From positions 1 through 40,442 of the forward strand of contig JABJBS010000041.1 of assembly GCA_018668695.1 (NCBI GenBank): DNA of 40,442 nt. Direction: 5' to 3'. The notes under the pieces were generated by a model. The model was not told the DNA's origin, made no database searches, and worked only from the letters and a program-made list of their open reading frames with translations. This document shows positions 5,270 to 27,183 of the stretch, one piece after another (within the stretch, counting starts at the first letter, position 1; the number at the start of each line of letters is the position of its first letter). The DNA comes from Deltaproteobacteria bacterium (GTDB lineage: Bacteria; Myxococcota; XYA12-FULL-58-9; JABJBS01). Position numbers and translations under genes: made by a program.

Positions 5270-5378
5270 GGTTGAGGTTGTGAGACATCGACAAAAAAAA
5301 TGACGCGAGAATAGATAAGGTAAAGAAAATTCTTTACCCCATGTAAACATCAGGGACTAAGAAGTCGGAACGGCAGAA

Positions 5379-10911: not shown

Positions 10912-12069
10912 TCAAGGACAATGGTTGACCTTCGAGGTCTGTGATGGGTCGAGGCTGGCTAATAGATCTGGCTCAACCTCAGTTAATTTATCGGCCGCTC
11001 GACAAAAGAAATGGGCGGGTGTGTCTTTGTTCACAAGAAGCAATTGGAGATCTGAGATAGCGACTTCTCGTTTCTTAAAAAAACTTGGGAGTGCAAAGTA
11101 GTAACTGGCGCGGGCAAAGCGAAGCTCATCCAGGGTTGGGTTCTTTTGAATAACTGCATCTAACTCTTTAGATGATGCAGAAACAATATTGAGTCTGGTC
11201 GTCGGCCCAAGTTTTTTGTTGCGTGCTCGCATGCCATCAATAACGGCGCGGTAGCCTTTGGCGATTGGTTGTCCCGGCTCTTTTTCGAGCACTTTTTCAA
11301 ACCAATGCCGTGCACTTGGGATTTGGTTGAATTGAAAGCTGAGTCGAGCAACTTCCAGCATGGAATCTATGGATTGTGAATCCGTCGCTTGTTGGGCTGC
11401 TTGCTCTAATTGAGCTTTTTCAAGGGCGCTCAGAACGGTATCGGTTTCGTGCTCTTGAGGAACCAATACATGAACACAGGTAATCGTTAGGGATGCAATT
11501 ACAAGAGCTCGAACTGTTGTTTGGGCCGACCAGTGATGCACCCAGTTACGTTTGTTTTGGGATGTCTTAAGGGTTGAATCAACCAGAGAGCTAATGGGAA
11601 TGCAGATTAGGGGAGGTAGCCAGTATGCACTCGTGTTTGGGACAAGCGAAACCGCCAGATATCCAGCGACACCAAAAGCGAGAGGCTCGGTGATTTTGAT
11701 AATCAGGCTTTTTGTTTCTACATTAGATACCCACAAGGACAATGCTTCTAATGTTTTAACGAATGCAAAGGCGGCATAATAGAAAGCACCCGTGTACGGT
11801 AATATCTCATCAGGATTACCCATCAGCGCGGTCAAAAATTGGCCAGTAGCGGCGATAGAGCACGCGGTGTAGCCATCATGGAAACTGAAGGCGTGAAGAT
11901 ATTGAATGCAAATAATCGAGAGGATGAGCGCGATTGCTCCAAGTCCTAAGAGGGGCGGGATGGTGGACGTTATAGCGGCTGCACCAAAACCGATACAGAT
12001 AACTGCAGGCCCCCAACTGTGTTGACCATGATTACGGGTATTCTGGGTCCGGGTTGGTGGTTCGTACAT
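10912..12069 (-). CDS. Polytopic membrane protein with C-terminal TPR-like domain
   Basis: A 385-residue protein. About five to six hydrophobic segments fill residues 20-210 (for example IGFGAAAITSTIPPLLGLG and ALVIASLTITCVHVLV), followed by a soluble helical domain (about 215-385). The soluble domain has a TPR-like ARHWFEKVLEKEPGQPIAKG and a stretch around 325-360 with ELRFARASYYFALPSFFKKR. That last stretch and the preceding AYR-like segment resemble the TPR lipoprotein encoded at 16023-16571, so the two probably share a domain. I do not recognise a named family. CGGAG precedes the ATG. It sits 12 bases after the outer-membrane protein gene, so a role in the export or envelope part of the pathway is likely. 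Confidence 0.8.
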   Translation of the reverse strand: MYEPPTRTQNTRNHGQHSWGPAVICIGFGAAAITSTIPPLLGLGAIALILSIICIQYLHAFSFHDGYTACSIAATGQFLTALMGNPDEILPYTGAFYYAAFAFVKTLEALSLWVSNVETKSLIIKITEPLAFGVAGYLAVSLVPNTSAYWLPPLICIPISSLVDSTLKTSQNKRNWVHHWSAQTTVRALVIASLTITCVHVLVPQEHETDTVLSALEKAQLEQAAQQATDSQSIDSMLEVARLSFQFNQIPSARHWFEKVLEKEPGQPIAKGYRAVIDGMRARNKKLGPTTRLNIVSASSKELDAVIQKNPTLDELRFARASYYFALPSFFKKREVAISDLQLLLVNKDTPAHFFCRAADKLTEVEPDLLASLDPSQTSKVNHCP

Positions 12070-12081
12070 GCTTGGCTCCGT

Positions 12082-13902
12082 CTAAATATTCATCGTGAAG
12101 TCGATTGCGCACTGGACCCCAAGGGGAAGTTGCGCGAACAACGTCATGGATTTCGCGAGACCGGTCTCGCATCTGACGCCAAGATTGGATTTTTCTCCGA
12201 TGTTTGTTGATAGGCTCGCGGTGATCAGCAGGCCATCTAAAGGATAGAGCGCCATGAAGTTCAAATCCCACTGTATCTCGGCACCTGTTAGGCTCGCGAG
12301 CCGCACAAGGGCGCGATGCCGGTAGAGTTCTAGTGGATTCCAGTTTTCTGATGCGATAGCTCCCAGGTTTTGGGCGGCCTGCGCCGTACCCTGTCCCGTT
12401 AAGGATTCGATGACTTGAGCATAGGCTTCATTTTTTTTGGCCGTAAGGCCGTCCTGATCGTAGATATATTCAAGTGAGAGCCGCAGTTGTCCCAATTTGC
12501 CGCCGTCAAAGTCAAATTCTGGTCCCGCGCTAAGGCGCAGCCATGTTTTATTGGAGCGGTCATCGGGTTGGATTCCTTGGGGAGTCGTTTTCCAAATTAC
12601 AGTCCGCGCCCCGTGTTTCACGCCAATTTCGGTGAACCAGTTTGTGGTCTCCCCGATCCATTCCAAGCTCATGGAGAACCAAGTGTTAGAATTTCGATTG
12701 ATTGTGGCGTCAATAAACAACTTGTCGTTGAAGTTGGTTGCGAGACCAGCCTGATAAGCTGCTGTCTGGTCATAGCCGAGAAGCGCATCACTGTACTTTG
12801 ACTCTAAGAACGGAAAGTAGCGCCCGTAAAGTTGAATAGCGTGTGGCAAAAAGAACACTTGCTCTACTCCAACCGGGTTAACTTGTTCCCAAGGAGGACG
12901 ACGGCTGTCCCAGCTCCAACCATTGATTGGAAGACTGTATGCAGGGTGAAATGAGAGTCCGGGGCCTGTATCAACTCGGATAAGGCCTGCGTTGCTAAGA
13001 GATACAATCTCTCCGAATCGGTTCTCGAGGCTTAGGGTTGCAAGCTGAAGCCTACTTTTGTTTGTCTTGATAACTTCCAGGTCCCGGTCTTTCTCCAGTG
13101 CCATTCCCAGTAGAATATCCACATGAATGCTTAAGCGGGTGTGCCAGGTATCGTTGACTTCAAATGACCGTGTCCATCCCAATTGTGTATTGGCGATGAC
13201 CAATGCCGCCAGGTTCTTGGACTGAACATCAAGATCTTGGTGAATGAAGCTTTTTACGTTGGAGTTTTGTGCACTTAAAGAGGTGACGAGTTGTAGATCG
13301 GTGCTCCACGCTTTGGGCTTTGGTTCTTGTATGACCGTTTCTTCGATGGGGGAAAGAAAATCCCAAGGGTCATTGGATGTATCGGTGCTTGCTAGAGGCT
13401 GGCTCACCTCAGAGTTTGAAGTCTCATTCTCTTTCTCGGTAATCAGTAATAGATCCTGAGTTGGCGAGGCGATGGTTTCCTCATTGTTCTTTTCGATAAG
13501 AGGCAAAGATTCTTGTGCAGCAGTAGGGATGATGGGTACTTCAGTAGACTGCTCGACGAGCAGGGAACCAAGCGCTTTTTCTTTTGGTTCGTGTATTAAC
13601 GCTGCTGCGGTAACTTGTGGGCAGTTTTTTTCCAGTTGTTGTCGTTTTGGAAATAGAGATTTACCTTTCCACTGGACGTTTATACGCCGAGGGAATGTTG
13701 CCAAGACTGATATGGTGGTTCCTTTGCCCATCCACACCTGTGGCCCTTTGCCACTTTGTTTCTTACTGGCGCGAATTGGCTTGGTGAGAACGCATTGGTC
13801 ATTAATCTCTTGTGCCATTGCCGGTAGAGCCAAAAGCAGGTTGCCTATAAGTATGAGCGCAATGAACCAAGCGCCTTGGTGTGACGAAAGCCGGTTGTAC
13901 AT
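12082..13902 (-). CDS. Exported probable outer-membrane beta-barrel protein
   Basis: A 606-residue protein with a clear signal peptide (residues 1 to about 33, hydrophobic ALILIGNLLLALPAMA, cleavage after AMA). The mature N-terminus has a small beta-rich segment (VWMGKGTTISVLATFPRRINVQW) with SH3-like character, then a Glu/Ser/Thr/Pro-rich low-complexity linker (about 100-200). The C-terminal 400 residues show alternating strands rich in Trp, Tyr and Phe with Asn/Asp turns, as in beta-barrels. No family is recognised. ATG 13902 is used because it begins the signal peptide; the open frame extends upstream to 13974 inside the LolA-like gene. One base separates it from the LolA-like stop. The context suggests the outer-membrane part of the transport path. 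Confidence 0.8.
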   Translation of the reverse strand: MYNRLSSHQGAWFIALILIGNLLLALPAMAQEINDQCVLTKPIRASKKQSGKGPQVWMGKGTTISVLATFPRRINVQWKGKSLFPKRQQLEKNCPQVTAAALIHEPKEKALGSLLVEQSTEVPIIPTAAQESLPLIEKNNEETIASPTQDLLLITEKENETSNSEVSQPLASTDTSNDPWDFLSPIEETVIQEPKPKAWSTDLQLVTSLSAQNSNVKSFIHQDLDVQSKNLAALVIANTQLGWTRSFEVNDTWHTRLSIHVDILLGMALEKDRDLEVIKTNKSRLQLATLSLENRFGEIVSLSNAGLIRVDTGPGLSFHPAYSLPINGWSWDSRRPPWEQVNPVGVEQVFFLPHAIQLYGRYFPFLESKYSDALLGYDQTAAYQAGLATNFNDKLFIDATINRNSNTWFSMSLEWIGETTNWFTEIGVKHGARTVIWKTTPQGIQPDDRSNKTWLRLSAGPEFDFDGGKLGQLRLSLEYIYDQDGLTAKKNEAYAQVIESLTGQGTAQAAQNLGAIASENWNPLELYRHRALVRLASLTGAEIQWDLNFMALYPLDGLLITASLSTNIGEKSNLGVRCETGLAKSMTLFAQLPLGVQCAIDFTMNI

Positions 13903-13903
13903 C

Positions 13904-14659
13904 TTAGTTCTCGAAGTTGACCTTAGGCAGATAGTTCTTATCGAAATAAGCCGTTGGTAGTTCCGAAGAGTCAAAGCTAGAAAATAACGTTCGGGTTAAG
14001 GATTTGGGGCGCAGCGCGTCTTCAATAATGATTTCACTGCAAACTTCTTGTCGACCGATTTTTCTGTAAGATCTGTAGTGAGCAGTCTTCAGTAACTTGC
14101 CGCTTTTGGTGAAGAAACGTGCGTGTATTGGTGCGTAGGTCTTTGCATGAACCGTTAACTCTACTTGCTTGTAGAGCGCGCGGGAATTCGATGCTTTGAG
14201 GCTAAGCTTTATTTGGCCTTTTTTCTCTTCGGGCTCAATGGTCGCATCGTAGTACTTTTGCAATTCAATGTTTACGGTGTCCCCAATGGAAGCACTTCCT
14301 GAAAGTCTTTGAGAAGCTGATACAGGGATAGGCCGGGATGTCTTCTGATTGTACACCCACATCTTGTTGTCTCGAAACAATACCAAATTGTTGCGTTCTT
14401 GTGCCGGTGACAAATAGCGTAACAGTACTTTTCGTTCTTGGTCTTCTCTGCCAACCCACATTTGGTAATTGGTTGTAGATGAAAGTTTTTTGTCTTCGTA
14501 GACTTCAATTTTCATCCGATTGCTGTAGTCGCCATTGAGACCACGATGGGCATCGACCACTTTTAGGATCTCTGACGGTTCGATGGTTTGGCTTGCAGAT
14601 GCGATGCCTGAGCAAGAAATTGTTAATAGCAATGTCATGGTGAAACGATTCATTTTCAT
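13904..14659 (-). CDS. LolA-like outer-membrane lipoprotein-sorting protein
   Basis: A 251-residue periplasmic protein with a signal peptide (MNRFTMTLLLTISCSGIASAS). The mature part matches the LolA-like family often found next to MacB or RND exporters: an ERKVLLRYLSPAQ segment, LVLFRDNKMWVYNQKTSRP, then SASQRLSGSASIGD, and a late YAPIHARFFTKSGK. LolA folds carry hydrophobic chains across the periplasm. Aryl polyene clusters also carry a LolA-like gene, so transfer of the lipid-like product is a reasonable role. The start at 14659 (or 14653, two codons later) follows GGAG; the frame reaching 14803 overlaps the permease gene and is rejected. It lies 19 bases after the permease stop. Confidence 0.88.
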   Translation of the reverse strand: MKMNRFTMTLLLTISCSGIASASQTIEPSEILKVVDAHRGLNGDYSNRMKIEVYEDKKLSSTTNYQMWVGREDQERKVLLRYLSPAQERNNLVLFRDNKMWVYNQKTSRPIPVSASQRLSGSASIGDTVNIELQKYYDATIEPEEKKGQIKLSLKASNSRALYKQVELTVHAKTYAPIHARFFTKSGKLLKTAHYRSYRKIGRQEVCSEIIIEDALRPKSLTRTLFSSFDSSELPTAYFDKNYLPKVNFEN

Positions 14660-14678
14660 AGTCTCCGCGTGAGGTGGT

Positions 14679-16007
14679 TTATCCGTTTCGAAGGGCTTGG
14701 ATGATATTTGCTTTGCAACCCTGGTAAGCAGGGAAGAGGCACGAGAGGAACACTGCACATACAATGAACTCAAACACGTGAAGGACAAACCAAGGTGTTT
14801 CAAATACTCTTAGCTTGATCAGATACCCTTTGCTTGCTCCAGGTGGAGGAGGGGCTTCAATGCCAAATTGATTGAATACAGCGACCGCACCGAGACAGAG
14901 GGCAAGAGCAATTGCTCCCATGACGAATCCCAGTAGTATCGTCTCGTTCACGAATCCTTTTAAGATTGAGTTGGGCTGGGCGCCAAATGCACGTAGCAGC
15001 GCAATCTCATCTGTTCGTTCGGTTGTCATAATCATTAGGACACTGCCAATAAAGAGCAGGGCGAAGAGCATAATCACCGTTGAAAAGAAGGTGAAGATGT
15101 TTTTATAGAGCCTCTCTACCGATCCATAAAATGTAGCCAGTGATTTCCAATCTCGGTATTCGAGGATAAACCCTTTTTGACTGAGAAGGTCTTGGGTGTA
15201 GTTCATGACCTCGAGAAGGTCTTCGCTGGATTTGAGGAGGATAATTACTCTATCAACAGATTCGGTCCCCAACATGTCCCATGCATTAGAAAGTGTTAGC
15301 TTGACCGCCACGTCATCGTAATCTTCCGAGAAACTCTCCGTGACTCCCTTTACTTCTAAGTCTGTCGCGGCCATCCCATCGTTGGGACTGTTGGATAGTA
15401 AGGTGAGGATAGTACCTGGCGAGGCTGCCAGCTGGGTTGCAACTCCCTTACCAATAAGACCAACTCCCTCATCACCGCTGGAAAAGCGCTGACCTTGTGT
15501 GATGGTTTCTCCAAATGCCGATAACTTTCGATCCGCAGCTGGCTCAACAGCTCGCGCAACGAATGTGGCAGACGTATCGCCGTTTGAAATCAGGCCGCTG
15601 AAATTGAGTTCTGGTGCAATAACGTCAATTTTTGTCGCGAGGAACGGATCTTTCTTCAAGCTTTCGACGAGGCTTTTGTATTGCGTAAGTTTGTACTTCC
15701 ACGGTTCTTGTTTCCCGTGTTCTGCATAGCCAGCCTGATATATTTGGAAATGCCCGGTCTCGCTGCGAATGGTGCTTTCTGAAAGGCCCCAAAATGAATG
15801 TTGGAAATAGCCGCCCATAACAGTTAACGCCATCATACAAACAAGTATGGTCGCACCTAGAATGATGCTGATGTGTCTACGCCCCAGGATGGCCTTTAAT
15901 GAGAATCTCAAAAGACCTGGGGTACTCACGATTGAGTAGGTAAAATACACGAGCGCAATAAACATAAGCAGGTGAAGGCTGCCGGTCATGATTGGGTTGA
16001 ACATCAT
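14679..16007 (-). CDS. ABC transporter permease (FtsX/MacB/LolC type)
   Basis: A 442-residue inner-membrane permease. Layout: a first hydrophobic stretch (about 10-30), a second membrane helix near 48-68 (LGATILVCMMALTVMGG), a periplasmic domain of about 200 residues, and three C-terminal membrane helices (about 285-310, 335-360, 405-430). The FtsX signature region shows as MIMTTERTDEIALLRAFGAQPNSI, the coupling segment typical of MacB and LolC/E. The extra N-terminal hydrophobic segment before the usual first helix is unusual. AAGGAAAA precedes the ATG. It pairs with the ATPase at 16565-17260, with the TPR lipoprotein gene between them, and is followed by the LolA-like gene. Export or lipid extraction from the inner membrane is the expected role. 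Confidence 0.92.
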   Translation of the reverse strand: MMFNPIMTGSLHLLMFIALVYFTYSIVSTPGLLRFSLKAILGRRHISIILGATILVCMMALTVMGGYFQHSFWGLSESTIRSETGHFQIYQAGYAEHGKQEPWKYKLTQYKSLVESLKKDPFLATKIDVIAPELNFSGLISNGDTSATFVARAVEPAADRKLSAFGETITQGQRFSSGDEGVGLIGKGVATQLAASPGTILTLLSNSPNDGMAATDLEVKGVTESFSEDYDDVAVKLTLSNAWDMLGTESVDRVIILLKSSEDLLEVMNYTQDLLSQKGFILEYRDWKSLATFYGSVERLYKNIFTFFSTVIMLFALLFIGSVLMIMTTERTDEIALLRAFGAQPNSILKGFVNETILLGFVMGAIALALCLGAVAVFNQFGIEAPPPPGASKGYLIKLRVFETPWFVLHVFEFIVCAVFLSCLFPAYQGCKANIIQALRNG

Positions 16008-16022: not shown

Positions 16023-16571
16023 TTAGGGAATTTGTTTCAGCGCCATTTCAACAGTGCTGCGCTCGGTTTGGGTCAGGGTGTATGTGCTTGCGAGTTCGTC
16101 CAATACACTTTTTGCTTCAGCTTGCTTCTTAAACAGGGCTGGAAGGCTGGCGAGGGTTACGCCGTAATATAAACGAACCATTTTTTGTTTTGGGCTTTTC
16201 TTGAGTGCCTTTTGTAGGATGTCCAGACCTTCATCGACACATTCTACAGCTTTAATAAGATCGACGTCTTGGTATACGTCACCCATTTTTGCTCGGTAAG
16301 CGCCATTGATTCCCGTGAGCTCTGGGTGCTTGAAATGAGTTTCGAGTGATTTGATTTCGGCCCACTCTTTTTCGATGCCATCAACACTATCGGCGGAATT
16401 GTTCAATAAGTACCGTGCGTATACCAATGCCTGTTTTTGAGACTTGGTCTGTTCATATTTGTTACGCAGTCGACTCTTTTCTGCCTGCGCTCCGGAGTTG
16501 GAGCACGCGAGTACTAAAAATGTAGCGGCCAGAGTCATAGATAGAACAGATTTCGATTGGGCGATTAACAT
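16023..16571 (-). CDS. TPR-like lipoprotein of the export module
   Basis: A 182-residue protein with a lipoprotein signal (LVLAC, lipidated Cys23, followed by Ser-Asn). The mature part is helical with repeats; it includes AYRAKMGDVY and KMVRLYYGVTLASLPALFKKQAEA. The latter resembles the RFARASYYFALPSFFKKR segment of the membrane-TPR protein at 10912-12069, so the operon carries two copies of this domain. Function unknown; it may hold parts of the ABC/LolA machinery together. Its start overlaps the ATPase stop by seven bases, and the permease gene follows after 15 bases, showing translational linkage within the transporter set. Confidence 0.85.
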   Translation of the reverse strand: MLIAQSKSVLSMTLAATFLVLACSNSGAQAEKSRLRNKYEQTKSQKQALVYARYLLNNSADSVDGIEKEWAEIKSLETHFKHPELTGINGAYRAKMGDVYQDVDLIKAVECVDEGLDILQKALKKSPKQKMVRLYYGVTLASLPALFKKQAEAKSVLDELASTYTLTQTERSTVEMALKQIP

Positions 16572-17260
16572 GGGTAAATTTCTCCGTCCCTCAGGGTGAT
16601 GATATTTTCATTGAATGCTTCAATGACGGTTTGGTCATGGGTGGATACGATAATAGCGGCATGGTTTTGTGAACTAAGCCGGTCAAAGATCTTAAGTATT
16701 GATTTGGTGGTAACACTGTCGAGAGCGGATGATGGTTCGTCCGCAATGATCAAATCGGGTGATTTTAGAAGTGCGCGTGCAATGCAGACCCGTTGTCTCT
16801 GACCACCACTTAGTTGGCTTATCCTTTTGTTGATCTCGCGACCAAGTCCAACGCCTCGCAAAAGTTCTTTTGCCAATTCATAGTCTTCATCCAGTAGTTT
16901 TCTAGTATGAATGATTGGCAGCAAAACATTATCGAGGGCGCTGTAAAAAGGAACGAGGTAGTTTTCTTGAAAAATGAATGAAATCTTTGAGGCTCGAAAA
17001 TCGGTTCTGATCGATTCGTCTGCCTTCGAAACCTCTTGCTCTGAGAAATGGATAGAACCACTTGATGGCGTTTCTAAGAGTCCTAGGAGATTTAAGAGGG
17101 TAGTCTTGCCGCTCCCAGATGGACCTACCAGGCAATAGATTTTGCCTCGTTCTAAGGTCAGATTGGTTGGTTTAAGGGCCTGTATCGGATTGCCGTATGA
17201 CTCTCCATAGGTCTTACTCACGCCGTTAAGAGTGGCCACTGTCTGAGTCTTGGGGTTCAT
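16565..17260 (-). CDS. ABC transporter ATP-binding protein (LolD/MacB type)
   Basis: A 231-residue cytoplasmic ATPase with Walker A GPSGSGKTT, Q-loop FIFQENYL, the signature LSGGQRQRV, Walker B LIIADEPSSALD and H-loop STHD. The short length and the SISFxFQ-type Q-loop region fit the LolD/FtsE/MacB branch that drives FtsX-fold permeases. GGAAG precedes the ATG. A 141-base gap upstream, after the aminotransferase-reductase stop, is one of the two places in the operon where an internal promoter might sit. It partners the permease two genes downstream. Confidence 0.95.
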   Translation of the reverse strand: MNPKTQTVATLNGVSKTYGESYGNPIQALKPTNLTLERGKIYCLVGPSGSGKTTLLNLLGLLETPSSGSIHFSEQEVSKADESIRTDFRASKISFIFQENYLVPFYSALDNVLLPIIHTRKLLDEDYELAKELLRGVGLGREINKRISQLSGGQRQRVCIARALLKSPDLIIADEPSSALDSVTTKSILKIFDRLSSQNHAAIIVSTHDQTVIEAFNENIITLRDGEIYPC

Positions 17261-17401: not shown

Positions 17402-20314
17402 CTAGAGGCCCCTGGTTTGGGGAACCGTGGCAGCAAATCCATAGCTTTCAGCCAAGGCCGTCACTTCTTTAACTTGTTTGCGGGTGATGTCTCCGAAAGA
17501 AAAGTTACGTCCACTTCCGGAGAGTCCCATAAGCATGGTTTCGGCCACACAGCCGTATACAGTGCCGTGTGGTAGATTTTTTACCGTTTCGGTCATTTCT
17601 TGTTGAAACGGAAGCTTGGCCAAGCCGCCTTGCATGTAGGTTACGTCATGGCGGTCTTTAACATCTTGCTTGGCATTGAGTGGAACACCAATATCAACCA
17701 CGACTGCTTCATGCTTGACGATGTCGGAGCCGACGAATGGCTCGCTTGCACTGGCTGCACATACGACGATGTCGGCGGAGGCAATGGTAGCCAGTGAATC
17801 CGTGACCGTGACGAATGGATCTGTTCCAAATTCCTGCTGAATTAAGGTTGCAACATCCTTACCTGTATTCTTCGGCATGTCCTTGTCACCAAGCTCTGCG
17901 ATAAAATCTTGCACAGATGTTAAATTCGCAACATCAAGTGCCAGTCCGCTCAAAGACTCTTTGCCTTCCTTACGAATGGTTTCGATTAGGGTTTCATAGA
18001 CGCGGTGATAGGCTCTTGAAAGTCGCTTAACTGATCCAGCTCTACCGCTGCCCACAAGCATCAAGTGAGCTACACGCTCAGCGAGTAGTGCTGAGTAGAC
18101 CTGACCGATATTTCCAGCACCTCCAACGACTGCAGCTGTGCAGCCGTCTAGTTGCTTACCTGTTTTTTCGGTGGCCTCTTGCATGGCCTTAAAACCCATG
18201 CCTGTCGTGAGTGCATTGCCCGAGGTATATGGCATTCCCGGTACTCGCGGTAAGGCTTTACCATTGTTGGTCACAACCGAGGTGAACATCCCCAAACCAA
18301 ATGCAGTACAGCCGTCTTTTTTAGCTTGTAATGCAGTGTCGTAAATCGCTTCACGTAGATCATCTAGTCCAGGGCCATTGAGATCCCCCAGGACTTGGCT
18401 GGCGGTTCGGCTTAAAATGTAGAATTGAACATCTACTTCTTTGCCAAAGGAAGCCGTTATTCTCTTTGGAACCGACGGCGCGTTGCACATGATGGTCACG
18501 TTGTTCGCATTATAGATACCGGCACGTTCTTCATTGGTGAGCCGTTCCAACGCGGGGTCGTTGTCGGAAATGTTAACGGGGTCCATGACATGGGCGATGA
18601 AGCCGATTTTGGGAACACCAACTCTCGATTTCTCTTTATAGTGAGCCCGCTTTTGTTTCACTTCATCACGTCTATAATCTCGGATTTTGTGATCTCTAGA
18701 GGACCGGTCTTGATTACCTACGTGCTGGAGTAGTTGATAGCTGTCTTGGTAGTAGAGGGTTTTGCATAATCCTTCGAAGCCCTGAATAATGGTATCTACT
18801 TCATCATCGGTGAGTGTTACGCCTGGCTCAAGCCGCAGGGTTGACGGTGCGCTTGCGGTGGGGACAGCTCTTATTCCCTGAACTTCTTGGAGGTAAGAAA
18901 AGAGACTGTAGCCCAGTCTGTTGTGGTGTGACACAAGTCGTACGACTGCGCTGTCCGCATCAACGTCCTGAAAGAATTCAACTCCAATCATTAAGCCGAT
19001 TCCGCGAACTTCTTTAATGGTACCTGGGTATTTTCTGGAAAGCTCGCGGAAACCCTCCATTAAGCGGTTCCCAAGCTCAGTGGCTCTCTCGTAAGCAGCA
19101 CCTTCGTCTTCTTCGAGCATGTCGAATACTGTGAGTGCAACGGAAGCACTCAACTCATCTTCAGCAAAGGTGCTGGAGTGAATGATCCCAAAGGCATCCT
19201 CGTAGTTGGCTCGCTTAATCAATACCGCGGCGTTTTTGGCAACACCTCCGCCAATAGATTTCGCGAAGAGAACCATGTCGGGGGCTACATCATGCGGTTG
19301 GCAAGCGAAAAGTGTGCCGCTGCGTCCCATCCCACATTGAATTTCATCAAAAATAAGAGGGAAGTTTTTGTGGTCGCATATGTTCCTAAAGTCCCGAAGG
19401 GTGCTACCCGGAATTGCGTGTATGCCGCCTTCTCCTTGAATCGGTTCAATAATCGCCGCAGTGTAGGCCGGGTAATCTTTTTCGACGAGGCTGATTTGAT
19501 TTGTCTTTTTATTAATCACGAAATCGTAAAAAGTTTGGCTAACCTCATCCATGATGAATTCGATTTCCGAAAGGTCTTCGTGATCAATGAAAACTGTTTG
19601 CATCCCGAAATACAAGAATGCTCGGCGGAAGGTTTCATTGTGGGTCATCTGTGCCGCAGCTACGCTTTTTCCGTGAAATGCCTTTTTGAGCGCAAATATG
19701 ATGGGGCGAGAGCTCAGGGCCACACTGTTGAGTCGTGATATATACCCGCGTAATTCCCCTGGAGTAAGCGTGTCTGCAAAAATTTGCTCACGCAGCTCTG
19801 TTTCAGCGAATAGTTCACCGGGGATTTCCACTTCGCCGTCGTTCCATCTCGCTTCCAGATCGTTGAACTTCTGGTCCAATTTTTTCGTAAGTTCCTGAAC
19901 TTTTAGGACTCTCTGAAATTCCGCATGCTTAATAGCAAGGTCAACTGCTTCAGCGCCGCTGTTCGCAAATCGCACCACGTAGTCTTCGTCTAGATATTTT
20001 TCGGCCAAACCTGATAGTCGTTCGGCAAGCCTTGCGGTGATAGGGCGGGGCGCGAATTGCGTGTGGATGGGAGTTTTGTTGTTGAGGAAATCCTTAACCG
20101 TGTCGTGGATTCTTGGGTGATTGTGCCCAAACATAAGGGAACCATACCCGCAGAGACAATCAATAATACTACCTGTTTCTCCTTTGGCATTCTTATAAGT
20201 GAGCGTGTGTCCTTCTGCTTTGATAAACGTTTTCTCTACTCCGTTGGCTTTCAATAATTTGGCTTGGAGTGGGTTTACATACTTTTCGTAGGTGGTTAAT
20301 TCTGGATTGTTCAT
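17402..20314 (-). CDS. Fusion: class III aminotransferase + acyl-ACP reductase-like domain
   Basis: A 970-residue bifunctional enzyme. Residues about 1-530 are a class III PLP aminotransferase: NSGAEAVD, EPIQGEGG, DEIQCGMGRSG (Asp323) and the PLP lysine Lys352 in LFAKSIGGG. An insertion near 130-205 is not typical. After a charged linker (about 535-565), residues 568-965 resemble cyanobacterial acyl-ACP reductase (AAR): KIGFIAHVMDP, GLGMFTSVV, TSGNALTTG, the Rossmann motif VVGGAGNIGQ (729-738), and VYGCVAETML with Cys922 at the position of the AAR acyl-thioester cysteine, followed by GRNFSFGDIT. AAR turns fatty acyl-ACP into aldehyde; the aminotransferase would turn the aldehyde into a primary amine. 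The tambjamine enzyme TamH has a comparable aminotransferase-then-reductase order. GGGAG precedes the ATG; the KR gene ends six bases before. Confidence 0.9.
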   Translation of the reverse strand: MNNPELTTYEKYVNPLQAKLLKANGVEKTFIKAEGHTLTYKNAKGETGSIIDCLCGYGSLMFGHNHPRIHDTVKDFLNNKTPIHTQFAPRPITARLAERLSGLAEKYLDEDYVVRFANSGAEAVDLAIKHAEFQRVLKVQELTKKLDQKFNDLEARWNDGEVEIPGELFAETELREQIFADTLTPGELRGYISRLNSVALSSRPIIFALKKAFHGKSVAAAQMTHNETFRRAFLYFGMQTVFIDHEDLSEIEFIMDEVSQTFYDFVINKKTNQISLVEKDYPAYTAAIIEPIQGEGGIHAIPGSTLRDFRNICDHKNFPLIFDEIQCGMGRSGTLFACQPHDVAPDMVLFAKSIGGGVAKNAAVLIKRANYEDAFGIIHSSTFAEDELSASVALTVFDMLEEDEGAAYERATELGNRLMEGFRELSRKYPGTIKEVRGIGLMIGVEFFQDVDADSAVVRLVSHHNRLGYSLFSYLQEVQGIRAVPTASAPSTLRLEPGVTLTDDEVDTIIQGFEGLCKTLYYQDSYQLLQHVGNQDRSSRDHKIRDYRRDEVKQKRAHYKEKSRVGVPKIGFIAHVMDPVNISDNDPALERLTNEERAGIYNANNVTIMCNAPSVPKRITASFGKEVDVQFYILSRTASQVLGDLNGPGLDDLREAIYDTALQAKKDGCTAFGLGMFTSVVTNNGKALPRVPGMPYTSGNALTTGMGFKAMQEATEKTGKQLDGCTAAVVGGAGNIGQVYSALLAERVAHLMLVGSGRAGSVKRLSRAYHRVYETLIETIRKEGKESLSGLALDVANLTSVQDFIAELGDKDMPKNTGKDVATLIQQEFGTDPFVTVTDSLATIASADIVVCAASASEPFVGSDIVKHEAVVVDIGVPLNAKQDVKDRHDVTYMQGGLAKLPFQQEMTETVKNLPHGTVYGCVAETMLMGLSGSGRNFSFGDITRKQVKEVTALAESYGFAATVPQTRGL

Positions 20315-20319
20315 TGTAT

Positions 20320-21063
20320 TTAATCTCCCTTGGTCGTTTGTACGAAGCCACCGTCAATGACGAGGTTGCTTCCATTACTGAGTGCAGCCGGGTGTAGGGC
20401 CATGAAGGCTACGACGTCGGCGATTTCTGTTGGTTCTGCAAAACGACCCATTGGAATTCTAGAAAACGCGCGTGGGTCCGTGTACCAAGGAGCTGCTTTG
20501 ATCATATCGGTTGCGACAGGTCCCGGTGAGATACAGAAGTAGTTTGTGTTGTTGTCACTGCATTGGGCGCTTGCCTGAGTCCAGGCGATAAGCATTGCCT
20601 TGGAAACGGCGTATGCACCTTGGCCTGGTCTTGGTCTCACACCGGAGACACTTCCCAGGGTCACAACAACTGGTTTTTTTGCTTTGTTGAGTGCCGGACG
20701 CACATGGTCATAAACCCGTAGGCTGCCCCATACGTTGGTTTCTAAAACGCGTTCCCAATCTTGGGAATCAAGGCTGACGAGTAGGTCATCTTTAAGTACA
20801 CCAGCGTTGTTGACCAATATGTCGAGTCGATCGGTTCCAATTTTGTGTGCAATGTTTTGCACTGACTTCTCGTCCAGCACATCCAATTCAACGAATTCAG
20901 CAGTACCTTCGTTATCTGAAATTAGATTGATGAGGTTTTGTACTTCCTCTGTGAATCGGCGTGCTGCAATCAGTACATGAAACCCTTCTCGGGCCAGGCG
21001 CTCGGCAATAGCTGCCCCGATTCCTCTCGAACCGCCTGTTATGAGTGCTCGTTTTTGTGTCAT
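20320..21063 (-). CDS. FabG-like 3-oxoacyl-ACP reductase (SDR)
   Basis: A 247-residue classical short-chain dehydrogenase. It has the cofactor motif TGGSRGIG (residues 8-15), NNAG, and the catalytic set with Ser in LGSVSG and Tyr-x-x-x-Lys in AYAVSK, then SPGPVATDM and a C-terminal VIDGGF. An Arg at the end of beta-2 (IAARR) suggests NADPH. As the only intact ketoreductase in the cluster it should reduce the beta-keto group in every cycle. It starts two bases after the stop of the degenerate SDR gene and ends six bases before the fusion gene, so it is tightly coupled to both. Confidence 0.95.
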   Translation of the reverse strand: MTQKRALITGGSRGIGAAIAERLAREGFHVLIAARRFTEEVQNLINLISDNEGTAEFVELDVLDEKSVQNIAHKIGTDRLDILVNNAGVLKDDLLVSLDSQDWERVLETNVWGSLRVYDHVRPALNKAKKPVVVTLGSVSGVRPRPGQGAYAVSKAMLIAWTQASAQCSDNNTNYFCISPGPVATDMIKAAPWYTDPRAFSRIPMGRFAEPTEIADVVAFMALHPAALSNGSNLVIDGGFVQTTKGD

Positions 21064-21065
21064 CT

Positions 21066-21680
21066 TTAGCTCGCCTTTCTTAGGCCGGTTTCAATGCCCT
21101 GTGCGGTCACGAAAAAATTGTTATTGATGTGGGACCAAGAAAGAAGTCCGCTTAGGTCGGTTGGATCGATGGTATTGCAGATGCCTAGATAGTTTACTGC
21201 AACTTTCTTTCTTGCCAGTTCCATGCCCGCCACCTTGGCCAGTGCTTCAAGGCCTGCGTTAAGAGTGGACTCGATGACCAGTGGGTTGGACGGCGCTAAG
21301 ATGCTATGGCCAATCTCACTGTTGAGGATCCAGACGGAACCGGATCGAGCGCGCATCAAAGGACGGTAGAGTCCTTTAAGTGCGAGGAATGTTTGATTAA
21401 GCAGTCCCCGAATATTCCGGTTGCAGCGTGTATCGGATTTCTCTAATGAGATGCTGGGTACAATCAGTACAGTATCAAATGGTCCTAGGGTTTTCACCAG
21501 TTCGGTATGCGAGTTGGTCCCGTAGTCCACTTTTTGGTAGACCTTTGTCGGATCAGCTATGTGACTGGTTGTCTGGGAATTCGTAAGAACTGTTACATCA
21601 AATTCGTCATGGAGCTTATTAAATAAGCTTAAACGATTTGGTGTGCCCACAAACTGAATTAGTAATTTCTTGGTTTTCAT
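21066..21680 (-). CDS. Degenerate SDR-fold protein lacking catalytic residues
   Basis: A 204-residue protein that follows the SDR pattern in its second half (GSVWILNSEIG, then LNAGLEALAKVAGMELARKKVAVNYLG) but has lost the key residues. The glycine-rich loop TGxxxGIG is replaced by VGTPNRLSLF, NNAG is replaced by VPSIS, and the Tyr-x-x-x-Lys is replaced by Val-x-x-x-Thr (VIEST). It is therefore probably not an oxidoreductase; it may be a partner or scaffold of the intact KR encoded directly downstream, or bind the acyl chain. Starts: ATG 21680 is used here; an in-frame TTG lies three codons upstream at 21689. No strong ribosome-binding site is seen, so translation may depend on the hydrolase gene ending 24 bases before. 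Confidence 0.75.
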   Translation of the reverse strand: MKTKKLLIQFVGTPNRLSLFNKLHDEFDVTVLTNSQTTSHIADPTKVYQKVDYGTNSHTELVKTLGPFDTVLIVPSISLEKSDTRCNRNIRGLLNQTFLALKGLYRPLMRARSGSVWILNSEIGHSILAPSNPLVIESTLNAGLEALAKVAGMELARKKVAVNYLGICNTIDPTDLSGLLSWSHINNNFFVTAQGIETGLRKAS

Positions 21681-21704
21681 AGCTAGCAATACGCTGGCTG
21701 CGCG

Positions 21705-22553
21705 TCAGTTCTGACAAAAAAACTTACCGATTGCTTGGTTTAGTGGACGGTGGTTTTCAATATAGGAACAGTGACCGGTATCTTGAAGGGTAAGGTGTTG
21801 TGACTCGCGTATTTGAGTCTGCAGTGCCTCTTGGTGTGATACGGGAAATACTGTGTCATCACTGCCACTTACGATGAGAGTAGGGCAATCAATTTCTGCG
21901 GCCATCTCTTGGAGATCGGGTTTGCTTCCGATTGCTTGAAGAAGCTTTAACACACCTTCACGGTTACGATTGTAGGATGCATATTGATCGAGCAAGAGCG
22001 ATTCCATGGATGCTATCCTGGGAAGATATTTCGCCGAATAGAACCAGGGATAAACCAGAGAAAATATCGATTTCAGATCATCTCCCGAGCGAATAGATCT
22101 CGCAACACCTTCGACTATTTTTGAAGCATGACCGGCGACTGTGGCACTCGTGTTGAGTAACACAAGTCGTTTAACGAGCCCGGGGTGTCTGGATGTCAGT
22201 GCCATGGCAAACATTCCACCTACGGAATAACCGATTAGATTTACCGGTTTGGAGGTCAGTTGTTTGATGAGCTTGGCAATGTTGTCAACTATCTCTAAGA
22301 AACTGATTTCGTTATTACTTTGCGGTGTTTCACCGCAGCCAGGGTAATCTAGGTATATTAAACGATATTGCTTCTTAAAATCGGGATAACGTTCCTGGCG
22401 AATCCAAGCCTTATGGTTGTGGAAAAGACCATTTAGAAAGACGATTGAATCCTCGGCCTCTTTATTGCCGGCTTGATAACAACGGATAGCCATTGGGGAT
22501 GAAGACGATGATGCCACTTGTTTTTGCACCTTGTTATGCACATTTATCAACAC
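21705..22553 (-). CDS. Alpha/beta hydrolase
   Basis: A 282-residue alpha/beta-fold hydrolase with an intact triad: nucleophile Ser110 in GYSVGGM, acid Asp232/233 in SGSDDTVFP, and His261 in DTGHCS. The oxyanion region is FLNGLFHNH and the strand-4 motif is DYPGCGETP. A Ser-rich N-terminus (about residues 13-20) precedes the fold. In a PKS operon it could be an editing thioesterase that clears stalled chains or an ester-hydrolysing tailoring enzyme. It is not needed for release if the fusion enzyme does that. The GTG start at 22553 overlaps the end of the upstream DH gene by 20 bases, indicating translational coupling. Confidence 0.88.
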   Translation of the reverse strand: MLINVHNKVQKQVASSSSSPMAIRCYQAGNKEAEDSIVFLNGLFHNHKAWIRQERYPDFKKQYRLIYLDYPGCGETPQSNNEISFLEIVDNIAKLIKQLTSKPVNLIGYSVGGMFAMALTSRHPGLVKRLVLLNTSATVAGHASKIVEGVARSIRSGDDLKSIFSLVYPWFYSAKYLPRIASMESLLLDQYASYNRNREGVLKLLQAIGSKPDLQEMAAEIDCPTLIVSGSDDTVFPVSHQEALQTQIRESQHLTLQDTGHCSYIENHRPLNQAIGKFFCQN

Positions 22554-23538
22554 GGTGTTTTTCCAAAAACTGAAAGAATTCTTCTCGATGGGTGGTATGG
22601 AATTTAGCTTTCTTAACTCGAAAGCGTTCAGCCTTCATGACCACTTGGCCTGTACTGTCAGCAGCAATGATATCGGCTTCCATATAGGTGTCGTCCATCG
22701 TGACACGTCTCACCAGGACCCTGCAGGGGCCTTCTGTGGGGTGTTTAGATAAAATGGTGATGTCTTTAGCGCCTACTGGAAGGCTCCCAAATACGCGTTG
22801 TAGCCTAGAGAGAAAAACCATGTACTGGAGGCAGGAATCGTAGCCTAAGGGAGACGTCATGAAAATCGATTGCTGGCCTTCTATATAGTCTTGCTCCTTC
22901 GCACCGCAGTCGTATTCGCCGTAAATGTATTCTTTATTGTCGCTTACGGAAAAGTTACCGGTAATACTCTGAAATTGAACACCATGTGATGGAGAATAAA
23001 ACCGATAGAATTCGTTACTGGGGAAACTAAATTGAGTGAAGTTCATTTCCGGTAAGAGCAAGGATTCGGGTTTCTGAATTCTTGATGTTACAATCACGCG
23101 TGCCGAGGCGTTGACTCTTTTTCCTAATATTTTCCCAACTTTATTGACGCGGTCGGAAGTAATGGCGAGCTCGTAGATAGTTTCGGTATCGGATTTTACT
23201 TGTCGTGTGAGCCCAATTTCGATGGTGAGTGCTTTTCCTGGCTCAATTGCGATGGCTCTTTCAATGTTGAGGTTTCTAACGTGTGAAATCTCCAAATGGG
23301 GGCTTTCTAATGATGTGCTTAACCACTTGGCTGTTTCGCAAAAAAGTTCAATGATTTGGGTGGCGGGCACGAAGCAATCGCCACCAAAAGTGTGGTCATG
23401 TAGATACTTATGGTGTTGAGTATCAATATGTACCCTGAGGCCTTTTAGTGCAGAACCTTCGGTTATGACTTCAGTACACCCGTGGAGATGGGGCAGAGAT
23501 AAGTTCTCTACCATTTTTGTGTTCATTAGCTGATTCAT
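22534..23538 (-). CDS. Free-standing PKS-type dehydratase (double hotdog), second copy
   Basis: A 334-residue protein with the fold pattern of polyketide synthase dehydratase domains. The first hotdog has His49 in HTFGGDCFVP (HxxxGxxxxP). A mid-protein SPSHGVQFQSITG matches the GPxFQxL segment. The second hotdog has Asp234 in SPLGYDSCLQ (DxxxQ). Both catalytic residues are therefore present. It should remove water from a 3-hydroxyacyl-ACP to give a trans double bond. Such domains are normally embedded in type I synthases; type II systems normally use FabZ/FabA single hotdogs. It starts 17 bases after the first DH gene and overlaps the hydrolase gene. AGGAAC precedes the ATG. Confidence 0.85.
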   Translation of the reverse strand: MNQLMNTKMVENLSLPHLHGCTEVITEGSALKGLRVHIDTQHHKYLHDHTFGGDCFVPATQIIELFCETAKWLSTSLESPHLEISHVRNLNIERAIAIEPGKALTIEIGLTRQVKSDTETIYELAITSDRVNKVGKILGKRVNASARVIVTSRIQKPESLLLPEMNFTQFSFPSNEFYRFYSPSHGVQFQSITGNFSVSDNKEYIYGEYDCGAKEQDYIEGQQSIFMTSPLGYDSCLQYMVFLSRLQRVFGSLPVGAKDITILSKHPTEGPCRVLVRRVTMDDTYMEADIIAADSTGQVVMKAERFRVKKAKFHTTHREEFFQFLEKHRVDKCA

Positions 23539-23555: not shown

Positions 23556-24545
23556 TTATGCAGCGGCCGCTGGTCCTGACTTTTCTCTATATTTTTCAAT
23601 GATAGACTCAGTTCCTGAACGGCTGTATCGCTCAAAAGGTGCCTTCTTGAGAATCAGTTCGCCGATGGACCCAACAAAATCACCGTTGTTCAAATGCAGG
23701 TTTGCCTCTAGGGTCATGGTGTCATCGTTGTGCTCCACGACTTTCGCACGGCAGCGGTACGATGCATCCCCTTCAAAAGGTTTATCCATACGGAAGTTGC
23801 GCACTTGAACAGGCAACTTTGTATAGAAATAGTCCTGCTGTCCTGGGACATTGAGCATGCTGAAGGTCACAGCCGTTTGGAGAATGCTGTCGAAGCCAAG
23901 TGGCGATAAGATAAATGGCAGATTCTTAATTTCTGAAAACGATTGCTCTCGGTCACCAATTTGAAACTGGCTTTCGACCTGGTCTTTGGCTGGCGATAGG
24001 AGAAGTTTACCATTCAATGTTTGGAAGAGTGGCCCATGGGTGTTGATGAAATACTCATAGAGCTTGGCTTTTGTCATGTCGTAGCGATGTTGTTCCTTGG
24101 GAGGAACAATTTCTTTGCCTTGCTTGGAGTCGAGGCCAAGTGCAAACTCGGCACTGCAAATCACTACATTCTTGCGTTTAACTTCACCTTTGCTGTTTCG
24201 TAGCGCCCCTCGGATTTCACAAGCATAGTGACGACCTGAATCGTTGTTTTCTATTTTTCGAACATTTACGCGGATGGTGTAGCGTTCCTTTTCAAATACA
24301 TGAACCGCGCGTCTGATATCGAGATTCTTTAGATTCAAAGGGAAGATGTCTTCTTCCGGATCAAGCATGGAGCAACCTTCAAGCATCATGTCCGCTAAGA
24401 CAGCTCCAGGTATGAGGCATTTTCCTGCAAAGAAATGGTCGCGCATAAAGGGCATGAATTCCGAGCAGAGTGTGATGTCGAGTTCCAAGCTATCGTGTGT
24501 CTGGGCGTTTAATACGTTCCAGTGTTCAAAAAAGTATTTATTCAT
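23556..24545 (-). CDS. Free-standing PKS-type dehydratase (double hotdog), first copy
   Basis: A 329-residue homologue of the next gene. Catalytic His37 is in HFFAGKCLIP (HxxxGxxxxP), the mid-protein motif is THGPLFQTLNG, and the second-hotdog Asp219 is in SPLGFDSILQ (DxxxQ). Both catalytic residues are intact. Two active dehydratases could share work on different chain lengths, or one could be a dimer partner of the other. The C-terminus ends in an Ala-rich tail. AGGAAG precedes the ATG, and the gene begins 17 bases after the third KS gene. Together with the acyltransferase linker it suggests that parts of this cluster came from a dissected type I PKS. Confidence 0.86.
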   Translation of the reverse strand: MNKYFFEHWNVLNAQTHDSLELDITLCSEFMPFMRDHFFAGKCLIPGAVLADMMLEGCSMLDPEEDIFPLNLKNLDIRRAVHVFEKERYTIRVNVRKIENNDSGRHYACEIRGALRNSKGEVKRKNVVICSAEFALGLDSKQGKEIVPPKEQHRYDMTKAKLYEYFINTHGPLFQTLNGKLLLSPAKDQVESQFQIGDREQSFSEIKNLPFILSPLGFDSILQTAVTFSMLNVPGQQDYFYTKLPVQVRNFRMDKPFEGDASYRCRAKVVEHNDDTMTLEANLHLNNGDFVGSIGELILKKAPFERYSRSGTESIIEKYREKSGPAAAA

Positions 24546-24562: not shown

Positions 24563-25855
24563 CTATCGGTTGAAACGTGAAAAGATGACCGAAGCATTCT
24601 GCCCACCGAATCCAAAGTTGTTGCTTAAGATGTGATCTACTCGGTGGTCTCGCGCCACTTCCGGTACGTAATCGAGATCAAGATCTGGGTCTCGCTCACC
24701 CCAGTTACGGGTGCCATGAACAACGTTATTTCGTAAGCTCTCGATACAAACGATTGCCTCGAGGGCTCCCGCTGCCATGATGCCATGTCCAATCATGGAT
24801 TTGGTTGAGGACACGGGTATCTTGAGAGCATGTTCACCAAACACATTCTTAAGTGCTCGTGTTTCGCTTAAATCATTCATTTTGGTGCTTGTTCCATGGG
24901 CATTCACATAGCCAATGTCCTCTGGATTCAGTTCGGCAGTATCCAACGCTGCCTGAATGGTTCGTGTAGCACCGCTGGCTTCCGGGTCCGGGTCCGTTGC
25001 TCGGTAGGCATCACTGTAGGCTCCATAGCCTTTGATTTCGCAAAGGATATTGGCACCTCGCGCTTTGGCGTGCTCAAGTTCTTCGAGCATCAACACACCA
25101 CAACCTGATCCCATCACAAAACCCGAACGTCTGTTGTCAAAAGGTGAACAAGCTGTTTCCGGATCAGGGTTGGTGGTGAGGGCTCCAATTCGGGTGAATC
25201 CAATCATGCCCGTAATCGAGAAATTGTACGCACCACCGGCAAGAATAGCGTCAAGGCGTCCTTGGCGAATATGGACAAAGGCCTCTCCAATCGCATTATT
25301 ACCAGAGGCACAGGCAGTGCCTATTGCAAGTTGAGGACCTCGAATCTTGTAGGCACGACTCACGAAGTGGTTGATGCTGTCTGAGTCATGATAGGGCATT
25401 TTCTTGCCTACATTGTTTTGCGCTAAGAGGTCGTAGAACTTCTTTCGATTAAAACTCTTCCCGTCTGTGCATTTCGCCATAATGGGAGCTATCTGGCTCA
25501 TGTAAACGTCGGTCGAGATATCTCTATCCGCTATATAGCTACCAATACGAGATGTGTTCGAAAGTTTCCTTGGGTCGAGTCCAGACTGCTGAACTGCTTC
25601 ATAAGCAGCAAGAAAGAATGACTGGATATCATCGTCTTCCGGTAACCTTGAAAACAATTCGTTATCTAGTTCGGCGTATTGGTTGAAATCAACTTTTGGT
25701 AATGGCGCACCAATTTTAACAAGATCTCCTTTTAATTGGTATTCCGGAATAGAACGAATTGCGTTCTCTTGCTTTAGCACTTTGTGCCACAGTGTTTCTT
25801 TACCAATTCCAAAAGGGCTTACGGCACCCATTCCTGTTACTACGACTCTTTTCAT
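24563..25855 (-). CDS. Beta-ketoacyl-ACP synthase (FabF-like), active
   Basis: A 430-residue KAS II-type condensing enzyme. The catalytic triad is present: Cys182 in GTACASG, His320 in NAHGTSTKMND and His357 in STKSMIGHG with Lys352. The ATG at 25855 gives the usual FabF start (MKRVVVTGMGAVSPFG); an ATG four codons upstream has no ribosome-binding site. The family extends acyl-ACP with malonyl-ACP. In this operon it is the second active KS and stands after the CLF-like gene, so it may extend a different chain-length range or start the chain. The gap to the CLF-like gene is 47 bases. Confidence 0.93.
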   Translation of the reverse strand: MKRVVVTGMGAVSPFGIGKETLWHKVLKQENAIRSIPEYQLKGDLVKIGAPLPKVDFNQYAELDNELFSRLPEDDDIQSFFLAAYEAVQQSGLDPRKLSNTSRIGSYIADRDISTDVYMSQIAPIMAKCTDGKSFNRKKFYDLLAQNNVGKKMPYHDSDSINHFVSRAYKIRGPQLAIGTACASGNNAIGEAFVHIRQGRLDAILAGGAYNFSITGMIGFTRIGALTTNPDPETACSPFDNRRSGFVMGSGCGVLMLEELEHAKARGANILCEIKGYGAYSDAYRATDPDPEASGATRTIQAALDTAELNPEDIGYVNAHGTSTKMNDLSETRALKNVFGEHALKIPVSSTKSMIGHGIMAAGALEAIVCIESLRNNVVHGTRNWGERDPDLDLDYVPEVARDHRVDHILSNNFGFGGQNASVIFSRFNR

Positions 25856-25902
25856 TTTACATTCCATTTCTGGCAGTGGACTAACGAAGGCTTGCGCTTT
25901 GG

Positions 25903-27183
25903 CTAGCTCGACTTGTTTTCTGGTGTTTGAAGGATGATGCTGCAGACTGAACCAAAGTAATCAAAGCAATTTGATAATACGTTTTTATGATTCGTTATCC
26001 GCGCGTCGTGGCGGACATAGTCAATGCTCTGGTTCTCAAAGAACTCTCCATCGCCTAGGATGGGGGCGATGAAACCTTCATCGAGTTGGATAGCGGCGTA
26101 GGCTACATTGATTGAACTAGAAGCGCCAAGCCCATGGCCAATTGTTCCGGCGGTTGCAGTGATGGCCGCACCTTTACCAAAAACGTTTTTGATGGCGATG
26201 GCTTCGGCTTGGTCCAGTTTTGGGATGCCGCAAGCATTGGCTTGGACAACTTCGATATCTTCGGGCTTGAGACCGGAATCGATGATGCAATTTAACATAT
26301 TGTCTTCGTATGCCTGCGCTATGTCTTGAATATCTAACTCTTCAAGATCAGGCAGGTATGACTGGGTGTAGCCTGTGATGTCTGCATAACGTTTGGCGCC
26401 ACGTTCTTGCGCTACATCTGCGCGCTCGACAACGAGAGTGGCTGCGCCTTCGGCTACCCAAAGTCCATCTGAATCCTTGGCGAATGGCCTTCCACCTGAT
26501 TTTTCAACTGAAGCAATACCCCGCTCATTAAGACGGTGAATTTGGTCCACTGCAGGCTCCCATTCGGAGCTTCCACAAACGATGCGCTTGGCGCGCTGAT
26601 CAGCGATGGCGTACATTGCATTACCGATGCTTACCATGCCGCTGGCAACGCCGTTTACGCAGCTGTAATTGATGCCCTTGATGCCATTTTGAATCGAAAT
26701 TTGTCCAGCGGTTGTGTTGGGGAGTCTGGGAAGAATCCACAGGGGAGGTAATTTACGATAACCCATAGAACCGAGTAGCTCGTAGTCTATGGTTTCATCA
26801 GACTTTACACAGGGTACAAAAGCCGCCCGGGTGCTGGCAACGCTGTTGTTAACGCCCGCACCATAGATGACTCCATTCCCGTCTTCGTCGGCTGAGATTT
26901 CTTGTTTTGTAAGCCCAGCATGCTTGAGTGCAAGGCGTGACGAAACGCTTCCGAACAATACGGGCCTGGTCATAAAACGAATGGACCGGCGGTCTTCGAT
27001 GTATTGCTTGGGATCAAAGTCTGGAACCAACGCAGTGTAGATTGGAAAGTCCTCATCGGTGGTGGACGTTGTTTGTAGTGCTGACTTGCCGTTTTTGAGT
27101 CCGTCGATATGGGTGTCTAATTCTAGTCCCATTGGGGTGACGACTCCCACGCCTGTAATGGATATATGGTTTGTTTTACTCAT
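25903..27183 (-). CDS. Chain-length-factor-like KS homologue, catalytically inactive
   Basis: A 426-residue KAS-fold protein in which all but one of the key residues are changed. By alignment with its neighbours the active Cys is Val179 (NGVASG), the first His is Asn316 (VQANACG), and the Lys is Ala345 (ATAGTIGH), while His350 remains. This is the pattern of CLF/KS-beta subunits, which pair with an active KS and set chain length. It lies directly after the KS at 27220-28446 (36-base gap), the standard KS-CLF order, so those two are the likely heterodimer. GAGGAA precedes the ATG. A CLF usually has Gln at the Cys position; Val here is less common. Confidence 0.88.
   Translation of the reverse strand: MSKTNHISITGVGVVTPMGLELDTHIDGLKNGKSALQTTSTTDEDFPIYTALVPDFDPKQYIEDRRSIRFMTRPVLFGSVSSRLALKHAGLTKQEISADEDGNGVIYGAGVNNSVASTRAAFVPCVKSDETIDYELLGSMGYRKLPPLWILPRLPNTTAGQISIQNGIKGINYSCVNGVASGMVSIGNAMYAIADQRAKRIVCGSSEWEPAVDQIHRLNERGIASVEKSGGRPFAKDSDGLWVAEGAATLVVERADVAQERGAKRYADITGYTQSYLPDLEELDIQDIAQAYEDNMLNCIIDSGLKPEDIEVVQANACGIPKLDQAEAIAIKNVFGKGAAITATAGTIGHGLGASSSINVAYAAIQLDEGFIAPILGDGEFFENQSIDYVRHDARITNHKNVLSNCFDYFGSVCSIILQTPENKSS

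Follow-up and report, generated by a model that had tools for sequence, protein, structure and literature searches.

A predicted acyl-ACP-to-amine release enzyme in a type II polyketide-like operon with a Lol-like module from a deltaproteobacterium

Introduction

The window analyzed here is the whole of one contig (C41, 40,442 bases) from a Deltaproteobacteria bacterium assembly of 424 contigs, estimated to be 98.6% complete and 2.6% contaminated. It encodes a protein in which an aminotransferase (TA) is joined to a thioester reductase (TR) resembling cyanobacterial acyl-ACP reductase (AAR). The locus raises the question of whether this TA-TR protein converts a carrier-bound acyl chain directly into an amine, as a preliminary description of the sequence had proposed, and, if so, which chain it would release and where the product would go.

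Domains and catalytic residues of the TA-TR protein

17402..20314, minus strand: TA-TR fusion, 970 aa, aminotransferase and AAR-like thioester reductase (single uninterrupted open reading frame)
18731..20314, minus strand: class-III aminotransferase (TA) domain, residues ~1-528 (PF00202; CrmG 5dds; Foldseek)
19259..19261, minus strand: codon of Lys352, the predicted PLP lysine (55/55 relatives)
17402..18619, minus strand: AAR-like thioester reductase (TR) domain, residues ~566-970 (TIGR04058; 6jzq profile)
17549..17551, minus strand: codon of Cys922, aligned with AAR Cys294 and equivalent to PtTamH Cys887 and PigE Cys296 (alignment; literature positions)

The N-terminal half is matched by the Pfam profile PF00202 over residues 44-514 (E=1.7e-62), and the nearest solved structure for this half is CrmG (PDB 5dds, E=1.3e-77). 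The C-terminal half alone is matched by the PigE family profile and by TIGR04058 (AcACP_reductase; 56.8 bits, E=2.3e-15), a score that falls far under the curated cut-off of 449.7 bits. A phmmer search of this half against solved structures aligned it with Synechococcus AAR (PDB 6jzq/6jzu, E=3.7e-8), with the cysteine in register, and with the AAR-like part of PigE. A profile built from 34 TR domains, 31 of which are matched by TIGR04058, finds 6jzq with E=4e-36 and, in PigE (PDB 4ppm), the AAR-like N-terminus with E=6e-46; counting along the alignment of this profile places Cys922 at the position of AAR Cys294. The AAR motifs named in the preliminary description all lie at the expected places (GFIAH at residue 571, FTSVV at 677, TSGN at 697, VVGGAGNIG with the glycine-rich NAD(P) motif at 729, CVAE at 922 and NFSFG at 937), and its reading of an aminotransferase joined in one chain to an AAR-like reductase, with Cys922 as the thioester cysteine, is upheld by these profile and sequence matches. 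The matches and the aligned cysteine are far beyond what chance would give, and by homology the C-terminal domain is assigned to the AAR relatives with its predicted catalytic cysteine retained. Against the PigE equivalog NF053554 the full protein scores 354.3 of 850 bits, missing the cut-off, and its domain order is TA-TR rather than TR-TA.

Both predicted catalytic residues are widely kept. The PLP lysine is present in all 55 full-length relatives, which span many phyla, and the reductase cysteine in 52 of the 55, the other three carrying glycine. These three (L030, L092 and L098, from Embleya and Actinacidiphila) are full-length TA-TR proteins with PKS-like KS and AT matches nearby, and their TR domains may be inactive or work differently.

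A structure model built from 5 sequences was poor (pLDDT 63.7) and was replaced by one built from 56 sequences, which is confident throughout the full length (pLDDT 91.8, pTM 0.88). The top PDB matches that Foldseek lists for this model all correspond to the TA half (CrmG, TMt 0.92), so it is sequence profiles that place the TR domain in its family. Of the checks suggested beforehand, the HMM comparison of the C-terminal half thus came out clearly in favor of AAR homology, while structure prediction supplied a confident full-length fold and listed matches for the TA half only.

The operon around TA-TR

The TA-TR gene lies mid-run in a tight minus-strand operon of about 9.4-30.5 kb, with a gap of 5 bp to the ketoreductase (KR) gene. 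Upstream are the synthase genes, from the acyltransferase to the ketoreductase, and downstream are the genes from an ABC ATPase to a CrtI-like enzyme. Since the window is a whole contig, the ends of the operon probably lie inside it. The genes other than TA-TR are, in the order of the operon:

29119..30540, minus strand: acyltransferase (AT), GHSYG motif (PF00698, E=1.2e-39)
28486..28857, minus strand: acyl carrier protein (ACP), Ser in ESI motif (PF00550; 49% to Fibrobacter ACP)
27220..28446, minus strand: ketosynthase KS1, complete Cys-His-His (profile; alignment with Fibrobacter homologues)
25903..27183, minus strand: CLF-like ketosynthase, lacking the active Cys and first His (profile; alignment)
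24563..25867, minus strand: KS3, second complete ketosynthase, Cys-His-His (62% to Fibrobacter homologue)
23556..24545, minus strand: PKS-type dehydratase DH2, HxxxGxxxxP and DxxxQ kept (PF21089; alignment)
22534..23538, minus strand: PKS-type dehydratase DH1, HxxxGxxxxP and DxxxQ kept (PF21089/PF14765; alignment)
21705..22553, minus strand: alpha/beta hydrolase carrying Ser-Asp-His, perhaps an editing thioesterase (PF00561; alignment)
21066..21689, minus strand: degenerate SDR lacking both the glycine motif and YxxxK, perhaps a partner of the KR (weak FabG match)
20320..21063, minus strand: ketoreductase, FabG-like SDR, YxxxK kept (profile; alignment)
16565..17260, minus strand: ABC ATPase of export module (PF00005; 52% to Fibrobacter)
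16023..16571, minus strand: small lipoprotein-like protein, labeled by inspection and conservation (no Pfam match; 43% to Fibrobacter homologue)
14679..16007, minus strand: LolC/E-like FtsX permease (PF02687; TIGR02212, E=9.6e-24; FtsX 50% to Fibrobacter)
13904..14803, minus strand: LolA-like periplasmic carrier (PF17131, E=3e-27)
12082..13974, minus strand: putative outer-membrane protein, by inspection and conservation, kept in the Fibrobacter cluster (no Pfam match)
10912..12069, minus strand: conserved membrane/TPR protein (Fibrobacter conservation; weak TPR match)
9358..10884, minus strand: CrtI/carotenoid-isomerase-like FAD oxidoreductase (operon membership inferred from direction and spacing)

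No enoyl reductase was recognized among the operon genes. KS1 and KS3 obtain their best PDB scores against FabF enzymes, not polyene-type ketosynthases; a polyene-type origin was considered, and these FabF-like matches do not decide it. The degenerate SDR, which also sits beside the ketoreductase in a Fibrobacter cluster described below (G195:C360 21564-22136, likewise with no NAD motif and no YxxxK), is possibly a non-catalytic partner of the KR. Scans of the window for promoters and terminators gave no more matches than in shuffled sequence.

Outside the operon, the window carries a cytochrome P450 gene at 656-2182, on the minus strand like the operon, and, recognized by eye, a glutaminase-like protein with ankyrin-like repeats at 3653-5350 and a REP-type transposase look-alike on the plus strand at 30856-31830, upstream of the AT gene.

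The Fibrobacter cluster and wider relatives

Relatives were collected by scanning one genome per species with an alignment query, and the best 80 of 503 were kept; used as a single-sequence query against genome contigs and viral contigs, TA-TR gave no match, whereas the alignment query did. Among these best 80 of 503, the closest TA-TR comes from a Fibrobacter metagenome-assembled genome (46-47% identity), on a contig where the genes from ACP through ketoreductase are arranged almost as in the window and the Lol-like module is present too. TA-TR lies at the end of the Fibrobacter cluster, compared with mid-cluster in the window. The Fibrobacter cluster (L110/L111) also contains a third dehydratase-like gene with a broken active-site motif (G195:C360 17761-18669).

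The next relatives are 34-38% identical and come from Streptomyces, Pseudomonas and Chitinolyticbacter, where they belong to KS-CLF-KS-CLF-TA-TR gene runs that in most cases include ACP and KR. In the tree, which was made with a quick method, the window and Fibrobacter TA-TRs pair with a support of 100 and are sister to 13 TA-TRs (support 99-100). This sister clade, from which the pair stands outside, includes the TA-TR of Streptomyces nigrescens HEK616 and the koreenceine-like TA-TRs of Pseudomonas, while the TamH-like proteins of Pseudoalteromonas and Chitinimonas form a clade separate from the window pair.

Further clusters were sought with the CLF at E≤1e-50. None came to light among 195 genomes of the phylum to which the window belongs, nor among 284 and 291 genomes sampled from two further phyla, which were searched without a positive control. 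Another genome of the Fibrobacter phylum (G367) gave a CLF match (33%), which proved to be an ordinary fatty-acid gene region. Within these limited searches, the cluster is seen in two genomes, that of the window and the Fibrobacter one.

Several other loci deserve mention. Exporter genes adjoin TA-TR elsewhere: a Pseudoalteromonas tam-type locus has LolC/E-like and ABC genes (L051 13855-19205), and LolA-like and MMPL-like genes, assigned by eye, lie near TA-TR in koreenceine-like clusters of Pseudomonas (L025 15690-19147) and Photobacterium (L121 20616-24032). Among the loci of the TamH-like clade, one, in P. aurantia, has a PigJ-like gene along with LolC/E-like export genes. The Photobacterium locus is a koreenceine-like ACP-KS-CLF-KS-CLF-TA-TR-KR cluster on plasmid pDA100 of Photobacterium sp. 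DA100 (a 2.1-Mb replicon, Vibrionaceae), and its TA-TR shares 33% identity with the window protein and 40% with its Pseudomonas counterpart. TA-TR was also seen inside open frames of ~2000 codons with large extra regions, in Nocardia (L058, L059, L066, L076, L079, L085 and L097) and in L017. No report of Lol-like export in clusters of this type was found in a search of the literature.

Published enzymes of the same build

The closest biochemical precedent is PtTamH of tambjamine YP1 biosynthesis in Pseudoalteromonas tunicata, a protein of ~950 aa in which a TA precedes an AAR-type TR with Cys887, and which in vitro converts a C12 acyl-ACP to the C12 amine with NADH and L-Glu (PMC9594044). The window protein has the same domains in the same order, an N-terminal class-III TA and a C-terminal AAR-type TR with its catalytic cysteine. 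The likeness to TamH suggested in the preliminary description, which had left open whether the reductase family was shared, can therefore be extended to that family. They differ in that the substrate of PtTamH is a C12 acyl chain on a TamA-type ACP and in that the two fall in separate clades of the tree; the identity to the P. aurantia TamH homologue, used as a stand-in for PtTamH, is ~29%.

For KecF of koreenceine biosynthesis in Pseudomonas koreensis, it was proposed in 2019 that an ACP-bound polyketide is converted to an aldehyde and then transaminated (PMC6498172), and in 2024 several natural fusions of TA and AAR were handled as TAm-AAR enzymes, with PpKTFusion as the KecF homologue (PMC10829540). 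The koreenceine system resembles the window in combining TA and AAR-like release with a type II PKS (ACP, KS/CLF, reductases) and membrane or transport genes, and the window TA-TR is 34% identical to Pseudomonas TA-TRs of koreenceine-like loci. The kec cluster, however, has two KS/CLF pairs and a drug-transporter-like KecK, with PKS-type dehydratases not described, whereas in the window a single CLF is accompanied by an additional complete KS, and two dehydratases, a pseudo-SDR and a Lol-like ABC module are encoded as well. Streptoaminals and 5-alkyl-tetrahydroquinolines of S. nigrescens HEK616 come from the nine-gene stm cluster, where an aminotransferase accompanies two KS/CLF sets (PMC12187902). 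A locus of this strain (L023), which we equate with stm by strain and gene content rather than accession, holds a TA-TR 35% identical to that of the window beside ACP, KS/CLF and KR genes; unlike the window, it has two KS/CLF pairs, and no Lol-like module was seen in it. The set typical of koreenceine- and streptoaminal-type clusters, ACP, KS/CLF, ketoreductase and TA-TR, is therefore present together in the window, with two complete KS and one CLF in place of two KS/CLF pairs.

PigE of prodigiosin biosynthesis (MAP branch), reinterpreted in 2021 as a dual enzyme acting on a thioester (PMC8341465), likewise carries an AAR-like TR and a class-III TA in one chain (PDB 4ppm), in the reverse order. 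Cyanobacterial AAR has the homologous reductase and the same catalytic cysteine motif, but stands alone with ADO as its partner. A single-chain enzyme taking an acyl-ACP to an amine is thus a kind already known, and it is the cluster setting in the window that is new.

Proposed pathway and alternatives

A route from acyl-ACP to an amine was put forward in the preliminary description and is already published for PtTamH; with an aldehyde as intermediate, it is the best reading of the window protein. We consider it probable that TA-TR releases an ACP-bound chain as an amine, a step for which homology to an enzyme characterized in vitro gives strong support. From the domain identities, catalytic residues, operon, cluster conservation and kinship to koreenceine/streptoaminal-type release enzymes described above, we infer the catalysis, step order, product and export of the following pathway.

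The AT would put malonyl on the ACP, and KS1 with its CLF partner, and KS3, would lengthen the chain in the manner of a dissociated (type II) polyketide or fatty-acid-like synthase. The ketoreductase and two dehydratases would leave the chain unsaturated, and their presence favors such a chain, although this is uncertain because the CrtI-like enzyme or an enoyl reductase of primary metabolism could reduce it. The TR domain would then move the acyl group from the ACP to Cys922 and, using NAD(P)H, reduce it to an aldehyde, which the TA domain (Lys352-PLP, with Glu perhaps as amino donor) would convert to a primary amine, either linear as in tambjamine tails or cyclized as in koreenceines. Release might alternatively fall to the alpha/beta hydrolase. 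The product, probably lipid-like, would reach the outer membrane by way of the LolCDE/LolA-like module. That an unsaturated polyketide amine is sent to the outer membrane can be put forward only tentatively.

Other readings of the same genes were weighed. TA-TR may instead be a TamH-like fatty-amine enzyme that draws long-chain acyl-ACP from primary metabolism, with the neighboring synthase making a separate product or a partner of the amine. PtTamH does act on C12 acyl-ACP, and a Pseudoalteromonas tam-type locus shares the LolC/E-like and ABC export genes, but the tree groups the window protein with polyketide-type release enzymes and away from TamH, a TamA-like adenylation-ACP gene was not found in the operon, and the window TA-TR has an ACP and a synthase of its own in the same tight run; we regard this reading as improbable.

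The two halves might also serve different reactions, with the TR supplying an aldehyde for another step and the TA acting on another carbonyl of the same chain or on another molecule. They are separate domains joined by a linker of ~36 residues, as such a division of labor would allow, yet for fused homologues sequential action on one substrate has been shown or proposed, and the catalytic residues of TA and TR are co-conserved in most relatives, which makes the division distinctly less probable still. That the fusion is decayed or non-functional is the least credible reading, and very much so: nothing specific speaks for it, though three relatives have Gly for Cys, while the frame is open, the catalytic residues are intact, the fold model is confident and the protein is conserved in two distant genomes. 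The release of an ACP-bound chain as an amine by TA-TR remains the preferred reading.

Implications for polyketide-amine clusters

The window adds a TA-TR lineage set in an undescribed cluster, in which a synthase, a releasing enzyme and a Lol-like export route occur together. Aryl polyenes decorate the cell envelope, and the lipid proposed here would differ from them by its amine head. It is conceivable, if doubtful as a whole, that the window and Fibrobacter clusters represent a separate branch of polyketide-amine clusters, common to two distant lineages, which would use a KS/CLF, a second KS and PKS-type dehydratases of its own to make an unsaturated, polyene-like lipid amine and would place it in the outer membrane via a dedicated LolCDE/LolA-like carrier. 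Should the product turn out to be an envelope amine lipid, bacterial membrane lipids would gain a new class, and the cluster would offer biocatalysts for making long or unsaturated amines.
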